Source of the DNA: Alphaproteobacteria bacterium
Lineage (GTDB): Bacteria > Pseudomonadota > Alphaproteobacteria > Sphingomonadales > JAKSBY01
Direction of reading: 5' to 3'
NCBI GenBank assembly: GCA_021774625.1
Contig: JAJFIV010000003.1
Coordinates: 1-33,381 of the forward strand
Length of the DNA: 33,381 bases
Position numbers and translations under genes: made by a program
Shown: positions 21,037 through 29,293 of the stretch, piece after piece
Numbering within the stretch: the stretch's first letter is position 1
Layout: each line of letters begins with the position of its first letter
Notes under the pieces: generated by a model
Seen by the model: only the letters and a program-made list of their open reading frames with translations
What the model was told of the DNA's origin: nothing
Databases searched by the model: none

Positions 21037-21060
21037 AAGATAATCTCCCAATCATTCATT

Positions 21061-21087
21061 AGCATAATAATTCATAATAATTATGCT
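21061..21087. promoter_or_regulatory. Palindromic operator of the toxin-antitoxin pair
   Basis: A 27-bp near-perfect palindrome. AGCATAAT (21061-21068) pairs with ATTATGCT (21080-21087), and the inner bases continue to pair except at 69/79 and 73/75. It sits directly upstream of the ParD-type antitoxin, where the RHH protein and toxin complex would bind to repress their own transcription. The site is seen directly; its role is inferred. Confidence 0.6.
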
Positions 21088-21300
21088 ATCAAGTTGAAAT
21101 TCAAGAAACCCAGATACCTTTCTTGTGGTCAATATATCCATGATATGCAGTCGACGTTTCTCATGATACTGGAGACGGCTATTGTCGCGGGTATGTTCCA
21201 GAAGGGTGCGCCATGGCACGAGGAGGAGCTCTTTTGATTCTTTCTGAGGGCGGCTGCCACTGGCAAGCCCAACAGGATTCAATGAGACTGAATTGTAATA

Positions 21301-21389
21301 TGGTGCCCGCTCCCGGACTCGAACCGGGACGGTCCTTTCGAACCTCAGGATTTTAAGTCCTGTGCGTCTACCAATTTCGCCAAGCGGGC
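21301..21389 (-). tRNA. tRNA-Leu (anticodon UAA)
   Basis: An 89-nt class II tRNA read on the minus strand. The acceptor stem GCCCGCT pairs with AGCGGGC, followed by the encoded ACCA end. The D arm contains AAATTGGTAGACGC. The anticodon arm CAGGA-CTTAAAA-TCCTG places TAA in the loop centre. A long variable arm (GGTTC-GAAA-GGACC) and a T arm CCCGG-TTCGAGT-CCGGG complete it. The flanking 200 bp towards the toxin-antitoxin pair hold no gene I can recognise. Confidence 0.95.
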
Positions 21390-21729
21390 GGCACCCTATT
21401 GGATATGGCTGCGCATATAGACATAATGACGGCGGGAAGAAAAGGGGGAATCGGGGCTGTCCGCATGACAGGCTTCGGGCTGCAAAAAACGGTCCTGCGC
21501 CTGATGGAACATTTCCCGGCGCGCGGCTTTCTTTGAAAACAGAAAAAAAAGGTATGAATTGTAACTTTTTTAACAATTTATCCCGTTCGTTACGTTTTGT
21601 TAACCAAACCTCTTGAATATTAACCTTAGTTAATGCGATGTGACCGGCTGTGGTTAATGAAGGATGTCATTTCGCGTCTGAGTGATGAGTTCTTCTAATA
21701 ACTTTGGCGAATGATTAGGGAAGAAAATT
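21390..21729. other. 340-bp region between tRNA-Leu and ctrA
   Basis: No gene is seen. It contains the promoters of tRNA-Leu (minus) and ctrA (plus). The half next to ctrA is AT-rich with a cluster of TTAA motifs. Confidence 0.5.
21570..21657 (+). promoter_or_regulatory. ctrA: Cluster of TTAA half-sites upstream of ctrA (candidate CtrA autoregulation)
   Basis: TTAA occurs at 21570, 21600, 21620, 21630 and 21654. Three of these are followed by C (TTAAC), as in CtrA half-sites. The pair 21620-21633 reads TTAACCTTAGTTAA, with 6 bp between half-sites rather than the consensus 7. CtrA autoregulates in several alphaproteobacteria (established knowledge); binding here is inference. Confidence 0.4.
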
Positions 21730-22521: not shown

Positions 22522-23370
22522 TTATGCGATGGCCGCCGCCGGCTGAGCCAGTGCCGGTGAATCGGCAGGGATATACATGCCACGCTGACCCCGGACCGGT
22601 TTAAAGACGTCGGTAATGCCCAGGACGGTCTCGGCCGCACCTAGAAACAATGTCCCGTCGGCCGGTATCTGGGCCCGCATGCGGTCCAGGATCTGGGTCT
22701 TTGTGGGCTGGTCGAAATAGATCAGCACGTTGCGGCAATAAATCACGTCAAATTTGCCAAGGGCGTCGAAGGGATCCAGAAGGTTGAATTCCTTATAAGT
22801 AACCATCTGGCGAATCTGATCGGTCAATTGCCACATTTCGCCGGTCTGTTCGAAATATTTCATCAGCAACTGAATGGGCAAACCCCGTTGAACCTCGAAC
22901 TGGGAATAAACACCCTGTTTTGCCTTATCGAGGACTTTGGGGGAGAGGTCGGTGCCAACAATTTCGAACCGCCATCCCGGCAATGTTGCCTGCTGCTCTT
23001 TAAGAATCATGGCGAGCGAATAGGGTTCCTGGCCGGTGGAACAGGCGGCGCACCAGATGCGGATATGTTTTCTGTCTTTCCGGCATTCCCGCAGGCCGGG
23101 CAGCACATGGTTCCGAAAAAGGTCAAACGGGGTGTTATCGCGAAAAAAGAAGGATTCATTGGTTGTCATTGCTTCCGTAACGTCCCGCATCAACGTTTCA
23201 TCCCGTGTGTTGCGGATTTCAGCGATCAGCTCGTCAAGCCCTTCCAGTCCCCGTTTGCGGGCAAGCGGGGTTAACCGGCTTTCCAGCAGGTACCCTTTTT
23301 CAGGGCTTAGCTGCAGGCCGGAACGGCGTTTCAGAAGATCGCTCAGTAACTGGAAATCTTCAGGCTTCAT
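22522..23370 (-). CDS. cheR: Chemoreceptor methyltransferase CheR
   Basis: A 282-residue S-adenosylmethionine-dependent methyltransferase that methylates glutamates on chemoreceptors. Seen: the all-alpha N-terminal domain (MKPEDFQLLSDLLKRRSGLQ), TTNESFFFRD, the SAM site IRIWCAACSTGQEPYSLAM, and FDVIYCRNVLIYFD. The ATG at 23370 is chosen over a far upstream start at 23475 because AGGAG lies 7 bp before it and the longer version only adds cysteine-rich antisense-like sequence inside cheB. It overlaps the cheB stop by 4 bp. Confidence 0.95.
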   Translation of the reverse strand: MKPEDFQLLSDLLKRRSGLQLSPEKGYLLESRLTPLARKRGLEGLDELIAEIRNTRDETLMRDVTEAMTTNESFFFRDNTPFDLFRNHVLPGLRECRKDRKHIRIWCAACSTGQEPYSLAMILKEQQATLPGWRFEIVGTDLSPKVLDKAKQGVYSQFEVQRGLPIQLLMKYFEQTGEMWQLTDQIRQMVTYKEFNLLDPFDALGKFDVIYCRNVLIYFDQPTKTQILDRMRAQIPADGTLFLGAAETVLGITDVFKPVRGQRGMYIPADSPALAQPAAAIA

Positions 23371-24533
23371 AACCGGGCTCCTGTTATGAGTTTTTTTGCA
23401 GCCGCGCCCATTTTGTCCAAAGGCAGCACAGAGCTGCACAGGCCGGCTGTAGCAACAGCACCAGGCATACCCCATACCACGCTGGATTTTTCATCTTGGG
23501 CAATCAAAGTACCGCCGGCCTCGATAATGGTTTTGCTCCCGGCAAGGCCGTCATGCCCCATTCCCGTCAGAATCACGCAGAGAGCCTTATCTTCAAAATT
23601 TTTGGAGACCGAGCGAAACATCGGATCGACGGAGGGACGGCAGAAATTTTCCTGCGGACCCTGGTCGAGTTTCAGCTTCAGCGAGCCGCCATCCCGGACG
23701 ACTGTCATATGGTAGCCCCCGGGGGCAACATACATCCTGCCGGCGGTCAGGACCTCTCCGTCTTTTGCTTCAGCGCATTCCCGGCCGGTCGCGCGGGCAA
23801 GGTGCTCCGCCAGGATTGCCGTGAAGGTTGCCGGCATATGCTGCGTGATCACCACCGGCAGATCGAGAACATCCTTTATATCGCTCAGAAAACTCACAAG
23901 CGCCTGCGGTCCGCCTGTGGATGACCCGATTGCAAGAATTTCCGGCTTCCTGGAGGAGGCTTTGCGTAACTGTATGGCCGAAGTTTTGCCGCTGACAACG
24001 GTTGGCGTGCCGATTGTTTGCGCCGCGGAAGGTTGGCGTAATTCACCTTCCGGAAGACCTTCGCCGCGTTCATTCCGCCTGGTCGCCGCCAGCGCTTTGA
24101 CTTTGCTGATCAGGTCCCGGCGAAAGTCGGTATTATTTCCCGTATCACGGTTTGTCTCCGGCTTGGGCACATAATCTGCCGCACCCTGCGAAAGGGCCTT
24201 CAGGCTTATTTCCGCATTTCGCCGCGTCAGAGTTGAGGCCACCAGAATTTGAATATCAGGAACTTCCGCGATCATTTTCGGTAATGCGGTCAGCCCATCC
24301 ATAACCGGCATTTCTATGTCGAGAATGACCACCTCGGCGCCGGAACTTTTCAGGTTACGGAGAGCCATCAGACCGTTGCCGGATGTGTTGACTACCGTAA
24401 TTTCCGGATCCTCCTGAAGCCAGCGGGCAATAAAGCCGCGAATGACTGCAGAATCATCCACTACCATGACGCGGTATTTGCCGCCGGTTGAAATTTTAAC
24501 GCCGGCCGGTGACTTTGTCAGGGTTGTTGTCAC
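23367..24533 (-). CDS. cheB: Protein-glutamate methylesterase CheB
   Basis: A 388-residue receptor methylesterase/deamidase with an N-terminal receiver (phospho-acceptor D72 in VVILDIEMPVMDG) and a C-terminal catalytic domain. The triad is visible as S205 (AIGSSTGGPQAL), H232 (VVITQHMPATF) and the Asp of LTGMGHDGLAG. It starts with GTG at 24533, immediately after the cheY stop codon, and overlaps cheR at its end. It opposes CheR in chemosensory adaptation. Confidence 0.96.
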   Translation of the reverse strand: MTTTLTKSPAGVKISTGGKYRVMVVDDSAVIRGFIARWLQEDPEITVVNTSGNGLMALRNLKSSGAEVVILDIEMPVMDGLTALPKMIAEVPDIQILVASTLTRRNAEISLKALSQGAADYVPKPETNRDTGNNTDFRRDLISKVKALAATRRNERGEGLPEGELRQPSAAQTIGTPTVVSGKTSAIQLRKASSRKPEILAIGSSTGGPQALVSFLSDIKDVLDLPVVITQHMPATFTAILAEHLARATGRECAEAKDGEVLTAGRMYVAPGGYHMTVVRDGGSLKLKLDQGPQENFCRPSVDPMFRSVSKNFEDKALCVILTGMGHDGLAGSKTIIEAGGTLIAQDEKSSVVWGMPGAVATAGLCSSVLPLDKMGAAAKKLITGARL

Positions 24534-24899
24534 TTACATTAATCCTACTTGGGAAAATTTTGCTTCGATGATTTCCCGGTCAAACGGTTTCATGATATAT
24601 TCGTTTGCACCGGCTTCCATGGCTGTCCGGATATGAGCCATATCATTTTCCGTTGTGCAGAAAACGACGACGGGCTGTTTTATTTCCGCCCGTTCCCGCA
24701 GGCTCCGTAAAAAATCGATGCCATTCATGACCGGCATATTCCAGTCCAGCAAGATGACGTCGGGCGCCTCCTGAAGACATTGTTCCAGCGCATCCTGACC
24801 ATCGACGGCTTCCATAATCTGGAAGTTCATTTCCTCCAGAATCCGCCGGGCGACCTTTCGGATAACTTTCGAATCATCAACTACAAGACAGCATTTCAT
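24534..24899 (-). CDS. cheY: Single-domain response regulator CheY
   Basis: A 121-residue stand-alone receiver. The acidic pair D8-D9, phospho-acceptor D52 (VILLDWNMPVMNG), the switch threonine in VVFCTTEND and the lysine in YIMKPFDRE are all in place. Its position between cheW and cheB marks it as the output regulator of the CheA kinase encoded upstream. Whether it acts on the flagellar motor or as a phosphate sink cannot be read from the sequence. Confidence 0.93.
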   Translation of the reverse strand: MKCCLVVDDSKVIRKVARRILEEMNFQIMEAVDGQDALEQCLQEAPDVILLDWNMPVMNGIDFLRSLRERAEIKQPVVVFCTTENDMAHIRTAMEAGANEYIMKPFDREIIEAKFSQVGLM

Positions 24900-24938: not shown

Positions 24939-25421
24939 TTACGCGGCAACATGCGCATCGAAATCCAGCAATTTGTCGACGGCCAGCACTACCAGCAGTT
25001 CACCATCGAGCCTGTATATACCGGCGGAAACTTCCCGCCATCTTTGATCCAGCGTCACCGGATTCTTTTCAAATGCGCCGTCTTCCAAAGACAATACCTC
25101 TCCGACACTATCAATCAGCAGGCTGTATGGTTCACCTTTGTGTTCGACAACCACGCTCATGGATTTTGCGCCATTTTCGCGCGGTGGAAAATCCAGCCTT
25201 TCCCTGAGATCGATTGCCGTTACAATCCGGCCTCTGAGATTGAGAACGCCGGCGACCGATTTTGGCGCGAGCGGTATTCTGGTGATATTCTGCGCATTCA
25301 GCACATCGTGAACAGCAAGGACGGGAATACCCAATGTCTGGCCGGCGAGCTTGATGGTCACAAAATCCTTGCTGCCCGTATTAACGGCTTCCAGTCCCGA
25401 TTCTTTTCGCGCTTTACTCAT
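24939..25421 (-). CDS. cheW: Chemotaxis coupling protein CheW
   Basis: A 160-residue adaptor linking receptors to CheA. The CheW fold is visible: DFVTIKLAGQTLGIPVLAVHDV, ITRIPLAPKSVAGVLNLRGRIVTAIDLRERL (with the conserved NLRG), then SVVVEHKGEPYSLLIDSVGEVLSL. Its start overlaps the cheA stop by 4 bp, so translation is coupled and stoichiometry with CheA is likely controlled. Confidence 0.94.
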   Translation of the reverse strand: MSKARKESGLEAVNTGSKDFVTIKLAGQTLGIPVLAVHDVLNAQNITRIPLAPKSVAGVLNLRGRIVTAIDLRERLDFPPRENGAKSMSVVVEHKGEPYSLLIDSVGEVLSLEDGAFEKNPVTLDQRWREVSAGIYRLDGELLVVLAVDKLLDFDAHVAA

Positions 25422-28400
25422 GCCGCATCTCCATGGATTTTCAGTTGCTGCGCCAGGCTGATCAAGAGCGCGTCCCGATCAAGCTTTACAACATAATCGT
25501 TAAAACCGACTTCACGTCCGCGCGTGAAATGCTGGTCGCCGGCAAAGCTGGAGAGGGCAACCAGGGGTTTGTCCCGCCAGCGTCCGTCCTCACGGACATT
25601 CTGGGCAAATTCGAAACCATCCATCTCAGGCATGTCGATATCGCTGATAATAAGGTCGAAGTCAGCGCCCTGGTCACGGAGTTTCAGCGCTTCCGCCGCT
25701 GTATTCACCGTTGTCACCTTATAGCCGGCGACAGAAAGCAGCGGTTTCAGCATGTTGCGGAAAAAAGAGGAATCATCAACCAGAAGAACGCTCGTATTCT
25801 CAACCGGTTTTATATTTGTTTGGGCCTTTTGCGAGTTCATCCAGTCGCTATAGGCAAGCTTCAGATAATAGGCGACATCGATGATTTCCGTGGCCTTGCC
25901 ATTAATAATGGCAGATCCGACCATGCCCTGATTGTCGGACGAAAGTTCGATTTCAAGCTGATCTTCGACAATGTCGAGGATTTCATCCACCGCGAGACCC
26001 ATGGAGCGGTCATTATCGCTGAAGACCAGAACCGGCTGCCGGCCTTCGGTCCTGAAGCCATTTGATTGATTGACCAGAACCAGCGGCATGAGGGCTCCGC
26101 GATACTGCACCATCGGCTGGCCATCGGATGTTTCAATCTTATCCACTTCGATATCTTCCAGGCGGGCAACCAGGGAAAGCGGAACGGCCTTCTGGTTTTC
26201 TGTGCCGGCGAGGAAAACCATCAGGGTTTCTTTGTCCTGCACCGAGGCTGCAACAGCTTTTGTCTGCCGCTCATCGGCCGCGTCTTCCGTTACATTCGTG
26301 CTCGTCTTCACGGCAATTCCATTGGGATCAAGGATCATAATGACACTGCCGTCCCCCAGGATCGTGTTGCCGGAATAGACGCTGATTTCCTTCAAAATCG
26401 GGGCAACCGGCTTAACCACGATTTCCTCGGTGTCAAAGACCTGATCGACAACAATTCCGAAGGTGGAAGCGCCTACCTGGGTTACGACAATGAATGCATC
26501 ATCCGTTTTTTCTTCCTCAACGCCGTCACTCAGGCCGAGAATTTTATTCATATAAACCAGAGGCAGCAAACGGTTACGCAGCCGAAGGACCGGCGTATCC
26601 TTGATCCGCTCGACCTTATGCTCGCTGTTGGCGGAAGCGCGCACCAGTTCCAGTACACTGATCTGCGGAATGGCAAAGCGCTCGCCGGTGGCTTCGACGA
26701 TCAGAGCGGAGACAATGGCGAGCGTCAGCGGAATTTTGATCTGGAAGGTTGTTCCTTTCCCTTCCTTTGAATTCATGTCGATAGTGCCGCCAATTTTTTC
26801 GATATTGGAACGGACGACGTCCATACCGACCCCGCGCCCCGACACGCTGGTCACTTTTTCCGCGGTGGAGAAACCTGCATGGAAGATGAGTTTATGAATT
26901 TGGCCATCGGACATTTCCTCCAGCTCCGCATCGCCGAAAAGCCCCCTTTCCTTTGCTTTTGCGCGCAGTTTTTTGGTGCTGAGCCCGCGGCCGTCATCGG
27001 AAATCCCGATAATGATATGCCCCCCCTCATGGAAAGCGTTCAGGCGGACCGTACCTGTTTCCGGCTTGCCGGCGGCCAACCGTTCCGCAGGCGTCTCAAG
27101 CCCGTGATCGGCCGAATTGCGCACCATGTGGGTCAGCGGGTCCTTGATCAGTTCCAGCACCTGACGATCCAGCTCGGTTTCGGCGCCGCGCATATCCAGT
27201 TCGATCTTCTTGTCGAGTTCGACGGAAAGATCGCGAATGATACGCGGCAGTTTGGCCCAGGCGTTGCCGATCGGCTGCATCCGGGTCTTCATCACTCCTT
27301 CCTGCAATTCTGTGGTGCATTGGCTCAGGCGTTGAAGAGGAACAGTGAATTCGCTGTCATCCATCTGCCGGACCATCTGCAGCAGCTGATTGCGCGTCAG
27401 CACCAGTTCGCTGACCATATTCATTAAATCTTCAAGCAGGTCGACGCTGACCCGAATGGATTGTGAGGACCGGCTGGGTTCAGTTCCTGCCTGGGCCTTT
27501 TGCTCGGCTTCCAGTTGGGACTGTTCCGCCTTGCTGTTTTCCAGCTTCTGTGACTGTTCAATCATCGGAGCGCGGGCAATTTCAAAACCCATCAGCACAT
27601 CGTCGCTAATCTCGGCTTCGATATCCATTTCATTAAGCACGGCCTTCAACTGGCCGGTTAAGAGATCAAACTGTTCATCGCCGAAACCGGGCGCGCTGAT
27701 CATCGAGGCGGCGATTGTGGCGGCATCTTCCGCGTCTCCCTCCAAAGCGGTTGTCAGAAGGCCGACAAATCGCGCCTTGCGGACATTCTCATCATCAGAT
27801 GCAAAAAATTCGGATAGTTTCTCATCCTTATCCAGATGGTTGGCGACAAGATGACCGACAACAGTGGTGGCATCTTCGCCGCCGAATTTATCGAACAAAT
27901 CATTTTGGACATTGCCGGTTGTCCCGTCCGCATTCTCACCCTCATCCGCATCAGGTCCGGCGGTCGCCTGAAAAACAGCTTCCAATTCCTCCAGGCTCAC
28001 TTCACCGGGTTTCAGTTCGCGGGCCGGGGCGGGAACTGCTTCCTCAACGGTTTCGGTTTTTTCTTGTGCTTTGCCGGTGGTCTTCGCTTCGCTGATATTT
28101 TTTTGCGTCACGGCTTTTTCACCGGCGGCAATGGCGTCAAGGCGGGAAATGAGTTCGCTGTCGTCGCCGGCGGGTTCTTCTTCGGTCGCTTCCAGACCGT
28201 GAAGAATTTCCTTGATGCGGTCAAGACTTTCCAGAACCACGGTGATGGCGTCACCGGTCACTTCCAGTTCACCGTCGCGGAATTTACCGAGTACATTTTC
28301 AGACGAATGCGCCACTTTTTCGAGACGGGGAAGACCGAGAAAGCCGCATGTCCCCTTGATGGTGTGGACCAGCCGGAAAATATTATCGAGAACGGCTTTG

Positions 28401-28495
28401 TTGTTGGGATCTTGCTCTAGCTTTACGACTTCTACGTCTACGACATCGATACTTTCGGCGGTTTCGGTGAGAAACTCATTCAACAGATCATCCAT
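25418..28495 (-). CDS. cheA: Hybrid chemotaxis histidine kinase CheA with internal globin-like segment and C-terminal receiver
   Basis: A 1025-residue kinase, much longer than the usual 650-750. Order: Hpt domain with phospho-histidine H44 (RLVHTIKGTCGF); an acidic linker; a segment at 200-312 that resembles a truncated globin; dimerisation domain (347-415); ATPase domain (about 430-590, N460 in HMVRNSADHGLE, DDGRGL); a CheW-like regulatory domain (592-735); a second CheW-like domain (757-885); and a receiver (901-1020, D952 in LIISDIDMPEMDG). The receiver may act as a phosphate sink or as an internal relay. It lies between chpT and cheW. On the plus strand the upstream gap has two GGGTTAA repeats at 28570 and 28591 that could be CtrA half-sites. 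Confidence 0.93.
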   Translation of the reverse strand: MDDLLNEFLTETAESIDVVDVEVVKLEQDPNNKAVLDNIFRLVHTIKGTCGFLGLPRLEKVAHSSENVLGKFRDGELEVTGDAITVVLESLDRIKEILHGLEATEEEPAGDDSELISRLDAIAAGEKAVTQKNISEAKTTGKAQEKTETVEEAVPAPARELKPGEVSLEELEAVFQATAGPDADEGENADGTTGNVQNDLFDKFGGEDATTVVGHLVANHLDKDEKLSEFFASDDENVRKARFVGLLTTALEGDAEDAATIAASMISAPGFGDEQFDLLTGQLKAVLNEMDIEAEISDDVLMGFEIARAPMIEQSQKLENSKAEQSQLEAEQKAQAGTEPSRSSQSIRVSVDLLEDLMNMVSELVLTRNQLLQMVRQMDDSEFTVPLQRLSQCTTELQEGVMKTRMQPIGNAWAKLPRIIRDLSVELDKKIELDMRGAETELDRQVLELIKDPLTHMVRNSADHGLETPAERLAAGKPETGTVRLNAFHEGGHIIIGISDDGRGLSTKKLRAKAKERGLFGDAELEEMSDGQIHKLIFHAGFSTAEKVTSVSGRGVGMDVVRSNIEKIGGTIDMNSKEGKGTTFQIKIPLTLAIVSALIVEATGERFAIPQISVLELVRASANSEHKVERIKDTPVLRLRNRLLPLVYMNKILGLSDGVEEEKTDDAFIVVTQVGASTFGIVVDQVFDTEEIVVKPVAPILKEISVYSGNTILGDGSVIMILDPNGIAVKTSTNVTEDAADERQTKAVAASVQDKETLMVFLAGTENQKAVPLSLVARLEDIEVDKIETSDGQPMVQYRGALMPLVLVNQSNGFRTEGRQPVLVFSDNDRSMGLAVDEILDIVEDQLEIELSSDNQGMVGSAIINGKATEIIDVAYYLKLAYSDWMNSQKAQTNIKPVENTSVLLVDDSSFFRNMLKPLLSVAGYKVTTVNTAAEALKLRDQGADFDLIISDIDMPEMDGFEFAQNVREDGRWRDKPLVALSSFAGDQHFTRGREVGFNDYVVKLDRDALLISLAQQLKIHGDAA

Positions 28496-28657: not shown

Positions 28658-29293
28658 TTATATGGTTGGCAAAGAGGCCGTGATGGTTATTCCCGTATCA
28701 TTGATGCGGGGAACATCGATTTTCCCGGAGAGGGTTTGGCTGATCGAGTATGCAATATAAGCGGGGATTATTTTGGGCTCTAAATCGGACGGGTTGAGTT
28801 CGCCGGCCAATGCGCTTTGCATTTTATCGCTGACAATAAAGCGCTTGCCATCGGCTTTTATCACAAGAGATATTTCCGCGGCGCTTTTTTGAATGGTGAT
28901 GGCGAGCGTGCCGCCGCGCACCAGTCCCTCGCCCACAACAAGGGCAAGATTGAGAAGGGTTTTGACGATATCTTTCGGCGCTTCAGCCAGGTCAGATGTC
29001 CATTCAATGGCGGTCCGGCCCCGGCCAAGAAACGCCCGCACCGTGCGTTCCGCTTCGCGTAAATCAAGGGTCGCGCCAAAGCCGCCGCCGGCGCCGAAAG
29101 CCAGCCGGAAAAACTGCAACTTCGCCGTGGCTATTTCCGCGCTGTCTTCCAGCATGGCCAGGGTCTGGGCCCGCATGTCCGGGTCGTTTTCCTCGGCCAG
29201 AATTTCTATGCCGTTACTGATGGCCCCCACCGGGCTCACCAGATCGTGGCAAAGGCGTGAACAGACAAGCGCCGCTAATTCCAGCTGATCCAT
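28658..29293 (-). CDS. chpT: Histidine phosphotransferase ChpT
   Basis: A 211-residue ChpT-type phosphotransferase. It has an N-terminal dimeric helical hairpin with the phospho-histidine H16 in SRLCHDLVSPVGAISNGIEI and a degenerate ATPase-like C-terminal domain (KTLLNLALVVGEGLVRGG onward), without ATP-binding boxes. In Caulobacter ChpT passes phosphate from CckA to CtrA and CpdR. Its place at the head of a chemotaxis operon that faces ctrA puts the relay protein and its target within 8 kb. The cheA start follows after 162 bp. Confidence 0.9.
   Translation of the reverse strand: MDQLELAALVCSRLCHDLVSPVGAISNGIEILAEENDPDMRAQTLAMLEDSAEIATAKLQFFRLAFGAGGGFGATLDLREAERTVRAFLGRGRTAIEWTSDLAEAPKDIVKTLLNLALVVGEGLVRGGTLAITIQKSAAEISLVIKADGKRFIVSDKMQSALAGELNPSDLEPKIIPAYIAYSISQTLSGKIDVPRINDTGITITASLPTI

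Follow-up and report, generated by a model that had tools for sequence, protein, structure and literature searches.

The cheA gene and its surroundings

The window, by which is meant the whole stretch of 33,381 nucleotides that was analyzed, contains a chemotaxis operon in which a ChpT-like gene lies upstream of cheA, and cheW, cheY, cheB, and cheR lie downstream. The genes, and the parts of CheA needed here, are as follows:

28658..29293, minus strand: ChpT-like histidine phosphotransferase, directly upstream of cheA and on the same strand (Pfam PF10090)
25418..28495, minus strand: cheA, 1025 aa, with the layout Hpt / linker / heme-free truncated hemoglobin (trHb) / linker / P3 / P4 / two CheW-like / receiver (ORF and Pfam domains; absence of heme inferred)
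28211..28489, minus strand: Hpt (P1) domain, with His44 present in VHTIKG (Pfam PF01627, E=1.2e-15; sequence)
27548..27901, minus strand: group-I trHb domain without the canonical heme ligands, CheA aa 199-316 (PDB sequence matches, profile searches, hhalign, AlphaFold, Foldseek, VIA-align)
27284..27466, minus strand: P3 dimerization domain (Pfam PF02895)
24939..25421, minus strand: cheW (Pfam)
24534..24899, minus strand: cheY-like receiver (Pfam)
23367..24533, minus strand: cheB (Pfam)
22522..23475, minus strand: cheR (Pfam)

That the protein is a CheA is supported by the presence of all the expected elements: an Hpt domain with its His, the P3, P4, and P5 domains, and the che operon itself (Pfam, the VHTIKG motif, and gene neighborhood). 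By Pfam, Hpt spans residues 3-95, H-kinase_dim 344-404, and HATPase 452-591; after these come two CheW-like stretches, and a receiver (903-1010) lies at the C-terminus. The interval between Hpt and the dimerization domain is about 250 residues, and it is within this interval that the segment considered here, residues 199-316, is found. The genome from which the window comes has seven MCP loci; a second CheA was searched for in this genome and none was found.

Two side observations concern the neighborhood. It is possible that the ChpT-like gene adjoining cheA ties the chemotaxis operon to the cell-cycle phosphorelay. In addition, the minus strand carries a tRNA-Leu (taa) at 21301-21389; the 174-aa ORF that encloses it (21052-21576) has no Pfam match and is therefore probably not a gene.

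Identification of a truncated hemoglobin within CheA

Computational evidence from sequence and from structure prediction shows that residues 199-316 of CheA form a group-I trHb domain between Hpt and P3. When the segment alone was compared with all PDB chain sequences, the 17 best matches were all group-I trHbs, headed by Chlamydomonas THB1 (4xdi, E=1.6e-4), and a 22-member family profile searched against PDB sequences found trHbs at E=1.2e-11. A canonical trHb profile was also built from ten trHbs, none of them taken from a CheA. Searched against the whole genome of the window, this profile found a free-standing trHb (E=5e-48) and then the CheA segment (E=1e-11), with no third match better than 0.035. 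Profile-profile comparison of the CheA segment with trHb (hhalign) gave a probability of 99.3% and E=2.4e-20 over 124 columns. Matches obtained with the A4 profile, which contains the window sequence, have been excluded from the independent evidence for homology.

The Pfam family Bac_globin (PF01152) scores 17.4 bits on the window copy, below its cut-off of 21; CheAs from the same order exceed the cut-off at the corresponding place, with 24.2 bits in one (L063) and 29.5 bits in another (L101). A search of PHROGs gave no match. The Pfam P2 families PF09078 and PF07194 gave no match up to E=10, either with the full CheA or with the segment, and a known P2 domain as the identity of the segment was rejected on this ground. 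Nor does the segment qualify as a globin-coupled sensor, a class defined by a heme-bearing 3/3 globin at the N-terminus and an attached output domain, since it is internal and related to the 2/2 globins of group I.

The predicted structure agrees with the sequence comparisons. An AlphaFold model of the segment, made from 22 alignment rows, is all helical, with a pLDDT of 89 and a pTM of 0.79. In Foldseek its best matches are all trHb I (TM 0.72 to 1dly), and VIA-align gives a Z of 13.6 with an rmsd of 2.5-2.9 over 114 residues to 1dlw and 1dly, so that by all three programs the predicted model has the 2-on-2 globin fold. It should be noted that a Z of 13.6 only just exceeds the level below which VIA-align advises caution for helical bundles; a long run of trHbs heads its list. 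A second AlphaFold model, covering residues 152-412, returns an ordered globin with flanks on both sides whose pLDDT is under 50. The N-terminal domain of RsbR does not appear among the leading matches of the structure comparison, an absence that does not exclude a relation.

Loss of the heme-ligand positions

Three residues of the domain bear on the binding of heme:

27704..27706, minus strand: Met264, in the column that holds the proximal His (F8) in heme-binding trHbs (alignment with His-bearing relatives)
27845..27847, minus strand: Ala217, aligned with the distal Tyr (B10) (alignment)
27854..27856, minus strand: His214 in helix B, invariant in 35/35 close homologues and the sole conserved His of the domain (column counts)

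Alternative placements of the gap put Ala at F8 but never His, and the F region of the window copy, which contains no His at all, is three residues shorter than in His-bearing relatives. Other Kordiimonas-type sequences of the same form have Leu, Ile, Met, Gly, Cys, or Phe at F8 and Ala, Ser, Gly, or Cys at B10. A second form, found in a family of the same order (f8), is without the deletion; Phe occupies its F8 position and His its B10 position. Elsewhere in the window's genome a separate canonical trHb, with LYGR and REAH, is retained.

Because both the F8 His and the B10 Tyr are absent and the F region is shortened, canonical heme binding by the window CheA is very unlikely. Its loss is an inference from sequence, albeit a strong one, since no heme measurement is available. 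It is likewise inferred that the CheA globin had a heme-binding trHb as its ancestor and has ceased to bind heme; the ancestry is supported by CheAs of seven other families, in which the same insertion still has both ligand residues.

An earlier note, made from sequence alone, had described a truncated-globin-like segment in CheA at 27560-27898, located between the Hpt and kinase domains. The globin assignment has held by profiles, hhalign, AlphaFold, Foldseek, and VIA-align and can now be narrowed to group-I trHb; the span has held to within a few codons of 27548-27901 on the minus strand, and the location has held by the Pfam domain layout. That note regarded a predicted non-globin fold as grounds for refutation; the prediction returned a globin fold, and the claim is not refuted. 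It had also stated that the proximal His and distal Tyr were missing and that heme binding was apparently lost. The absence of the ligands is upheld by alignment, and the loss of heme remains inferred.

Distribution among Alphaproteobacteria

Searches within the same order found a match in 60/100 genomes, with one family (f6) having none. Many of these matches lie in frames of ~1000-1100 aa; others lie in short frames resembling free-standing trHbs. Named carriers of the CheA form are Kordiimonas, Pseudokordiimonas, Iodidimonas, and Kordiimonadales MAGs, and the trHb domain is a regular component of CheA in bacteria of the Kordiimonas/Iodidimonas type. Class-wide searches found the same insertion in CheA from another eleven families (f44, f66, f88, f94, f98, f102, f109, f111, f120, f130, f145). 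One class-wide sample contained CheA in 57/115 genomes, and in nine of these 57 a globin occupied the P2 position.

The state of the ligands varies among these families. Both the F8 His and the B10 Tyr are kept in copies from seven of them (f66, f88, f98, f102, f109, f120, f130), the CheAs concerned being L066, L067, L068, L069, L078, L082, L088, and L094-L096; where intact copies were examined, Bac_globin lies far over its cut-off (e.g., E=3e-17, 7e-19, and 4e-16). Other forms in which the His is lost have Phe at F8 (f94, f111) or a deletion of the F region (f44), and in f130 a diverged copy without His (L086) occurs alongside intact sisters.

CheA orthologues without the globin, e.g., those of Azospirillum and Rhodovastum, mostly have a linker of ~80-160 residues (~120) at that place. 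Pfam detected no P2 domain in the eight such CheAs that were scanned, and on these grounds the idea that the globin replaced an earlier P2 domain was set aside. Many of the surveyed genomes are draft or metagenome assemblies, and one that supplied two CheAs (G324) is listed at 10% contamination.

These surveys bear on the remaining claims of the earlier note. A search of CheAs from related species, which it had suggested, finds the domain to be common in Kordiimonas-type CheAs and present in the eleven further families. Its statement that no globin was known at this position of CheA needs correction, because many alphaproteobacterial CheAs carry one and Pfam recognizes Bac_globin there. The choice between its two proposed roles, repurposed P2 domain and signal-input module, has not been decided; the domain does sit at the P2 position, and the match to a P2 family failed.

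Other truncated-hemoglobin fusions

Several other fusions were met in the course of these searches. In the globin-bearing CheAs L067:854-4453 (aa 707-831) and L077:2-2620 on the minus strand (aa 655-781), the CheW-like P5 domain contains a second inserted trHb with an intact F8 His, so that these kinases carry two globins. A 955-aa MCP (L076:1965-4829, genome G383) has an N-terminal trHb with an intact His, followed by PAS and MCPsignal domains, and a relative truncated by the end of its contig (L081:1983-3032, G291) has trHb and PAS. An MCP of this type is a truncated-hemoglobin counterpart of HemAT. An alphaproteobacterial MAG encodes a 495-aa protein (L060:4876-6360) with a CheW domain and then a C-terminal trHb with an intact His, and a similar globin is found at the end of a 389-aa frame (L061). 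Outside the class of the window, a sigma-54 activator (L168:357-2162, G859) carries a C-terminal trHb (Bac_globin 482-597). A C-terminal trHb is also the sole Pfam match in long ORFs of 901 aa (L165:2285-4987, minus strand, G694) and 420 aa (L166:2109-3368, minus strand, G838). Finally, many genomes of family f198 of the phylum have two or three adjacent trHb genes, e.g., G626:C14:147389-148639.

Evolutionary history and selection

In a tree of the CheA core, the Kordiimonas-type CheAs form one clade (100/96), all of whose members have the globin and none the His. Across the long class of CheA, the tree requires nine changes in the presence of the globin and six in the state of the His; many of its deep branches are weak. 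The ancestral state of trHbs is to bind heme, and the changes of His state are consequently most simply explained as repeated losses. It is thus likely that the heme ligands have been lost several times. In a tree of the globins themselves, the Kordiimonas-type domains again form one clade (100/98), and the globins at the P2 position as a whole are not united; therefore, several separate insertions are possible. A test for a single clade of all P2-position globins gave p=0.036, a value that carries little weight for so short a domain with some long branches.

In an alignment of 35 close homologues, the columns of Hpt, P3, and P4 have average identities of 0.91, 0.88, and 0.84, respectively; those of the globin average 0.51, and those of the linker that follows it 0.26. 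Nine globin positions are invariant (L199, G204, G205, D207, V211, H214, F230, G244, and F275), and seven others stand at 0.94 (K239, G269, F270, D297, M301, E304, and R307). These values indicate that the domain is maintained, yet evolves faster than the kinase.

A conserved peptide in the linker

The linker preceding the globin contains a further feature:

27953..28018, minus strand: conserved linker peptide LKPGEVSLEELEAVFQATAGPD, predicted to form a short helix and occurring in globin-free CheAs too (alignments, model)

Within it the peptide LKPGEVSLEELEAVF (SLEELEAVF) is present in 44/44 Kordiimonas-type CheAs. Outside this group, it is found in 0/19 CheAs with the globin versus 14/28 without. 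The motif was defined after the sequences had been inspected, and a mutual exclusion of globin and peptide outside the Kordiimonas type is not significant on the tree, which offers only two well-supported independent pairs. The conserved linker peptide PGEVSLEELEAVF lies at 27953-28018 of the window and occurs also in the CheA linkers of L106, L107, L108, L122, L127, and others.

SLEELEAVF looks rather like the short peptides through which FliM and CheZ bind CheY. If it does dock CheY, which is hypothetical, then other lineages could conceivably use either globin or peptide, and the globin of the Kordiimonas type might be free for another role.

Proposed function of the domain and competing explanations

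Taken together, these results have led to a hypothesis that we favor by a modest margin over its competitors, namely that the domain, whose function is inferred, occupies the P2 position as a tethered module for protein interaction that works without heme and arose from a heme-binding ancestor. In this model, an ancestral heme-binding trHb would have been inserted between Hpt and P3 of CheA and would then have lost its heme ligands while retaining its fold. The globin would now be a bead on a string, flexibly tethered by its disordered flanks, and would bind a partner, which may be CheY, CheB, ChpT, or an unidentified input protein. Binding of the partner may place or modulate the kinase, by analogy with the heme-free globin of RsbR in the stressosome. 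This reading is preferred because the globin is predicted to be ordered between two stretches of pLDDT under 50, like the P2 domain of other CheAs. It is also supported by a location at the P2 position without any P2-family match, either here or in globin-free orthologues. Against it, SLEELEAVF may itself serve for docking, which could make docking by the globin superfluous, and the globin evolves faster (0.51) than Hpt, P3, and P4 (0.84-0.91). Furthermore, the globin is dispensable for CheA as such, because globin-free orthologues are common. No partner, ligand, or phenotype has been shown, and for the protein-interaction role in particular the odds are judged slightly worse than even.

The main rival, and a serious one, is that the vacated heme pocket binds another small molecule, such as a fatty acid or a hydrophobic compound, and signals to the kinase. 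The fold and core positions have been preserved although the heme ligands are gone, and the ancestral type, which persists in other families, has the look of a kinase-borne domain for sensing gas. The existence in Bacillus of globin sensors that lack heme and bind fatty acid also counts for this rival. However, the disordered linkers on both sides leave no rigid route to P3. It could instead be argued that heme is still bound, through His214 of helix B as an unusual ligand, and that an O2 or NO sensor is retained, since this is the only His conserved in 35/35 close homologues. This is very unlikely, given that the F8 His has become Met, Leu, Ile, Gly, Cys, or Phe, that small residues replace the B10 Tyr, and that the F region is three residues shorter; to our knowledge, there is no trHb in which a single helix-B His is the sole heme ligand.

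A decaying remnant, or a neutral spacer that merely sets the reach of Hpt, would account for an evolution faster than that of the kinase core and for the plain ~120-residue linker of globin-free orthologues. Yet nine positions are invariant in 35 sequences, and even the diverged window copy is confidently predicted as a globin fold, which makes this explanation unlikely. Finally, an ordinary helical domain might mimic a globin by chance, as the failure of the lone window copy to reach the Bac_globin cut-off could suggest. Profile and profile-profile comparison, position-matched intermediates above that cut-off, and structure prediction rule this out, as far as computation alone can exclude it.

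A bolder version of the preferred reading can be entertained, although we would not wager on it: alphaproteobacterial CheAs carry their own hemoglobin-type gas sensor, which in the Kordiimonas type and several other lineages has independently become heme-free and now serves as an input or docking module. If this were true, oxygen or NO would enter chemotaxis at the kinase rather than at the receptor, and one orthologous protein would offer a series of natural variants running from heme sensors to globins without heme.

Comparison with known systems

With the group-I trHbs (PF01152; Chlamydomonas THB1 4xdi/6cii, C. eugametos 1dly, Paramecium 1dlw, and M. tuberculosis HbN 1idr), the CheA domain has in common the sequence family, the 2-on-2 fold, the LxxxxGG start, the FF in the CD region, and the G and H helices. 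It differs from them in lacking the proximal His and the B10 Tyr, in its shortened F region, and in being embedded in a kinase rather than free-standing. With the P2 domain of CheA, which binds CheY/CheB in E. coli and Thermotoga, it shares the place between Hpt and P3 and the flexible flanking linkers. Known P2 domains are ordered domains of alpha/beta fold between flexible linkers, and the CheA globin has no P2 match in Pfam.

A parallel from the literature is the N-terminal non-heme globin of RsbR. It too is a heme-free globin serving as the regulatory input of a signaling complex, and in Listeria it is bound by the membrane protein Prli42, which in this way activates the stressosome (PMC6614362). 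The output complex of RsbR is a different one, however, and no link of sequence or fold to the CheA globin has been established.

The globin-coupled sensors, such as HemAT, also join a globin to a chemotaxis signaling protein, but there the globin is of the 3/3 type and forms the N-terminal part of a receptor or regulator (PMC1457004, PMC13401364), whereas here a 2/2 globin without heme ligands stands in the middle of CheA. A globin census of 2006 recognized as chimeric globins only flavohemoglobins and 3/3 globin-coupled sensors (PMC1457004), and the relevant sections of a 2026 review of aerotaxis place globins in receptors (PMC13401364). No paper describing a CheA-trHb fusion was found in the open-access literature searched; an earlier mention could nevertheless exist in the survey of multidomain trHbs that PMC7082302 cites (Hade et al. 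2017, doi 10.1002/iub.1630). The architecture is already implicit in domain databases, given that Bac_globin in Pfam matches many alphaproteobacterial CheAs. So far, the globins of chemotaxis have come from receptors (HemAT) and from the 3/3 sensor lineage, and 2/2 trHbs have mostly been described as free-standing. With a trHb inside the central chemotaxis kinase, the 2/2 lineage would acquire a signaling role, and a possible gas sensor would lie downstream of the receptors.

A further comparison is with the CheAs whose trHb is intact (L066, L068, L069, L088, L094, L095, and others). The orthologous core, the insertion point, and the fold are the same as in the window CheA; these proteins differ in having kept the F8 His and B10 Tyr and in lacking the SLEELEAVF peptide. 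Since natural variants with and without the heme ligands thus occur in one orthologous protein, the role of heme in this kinase is directly testable.
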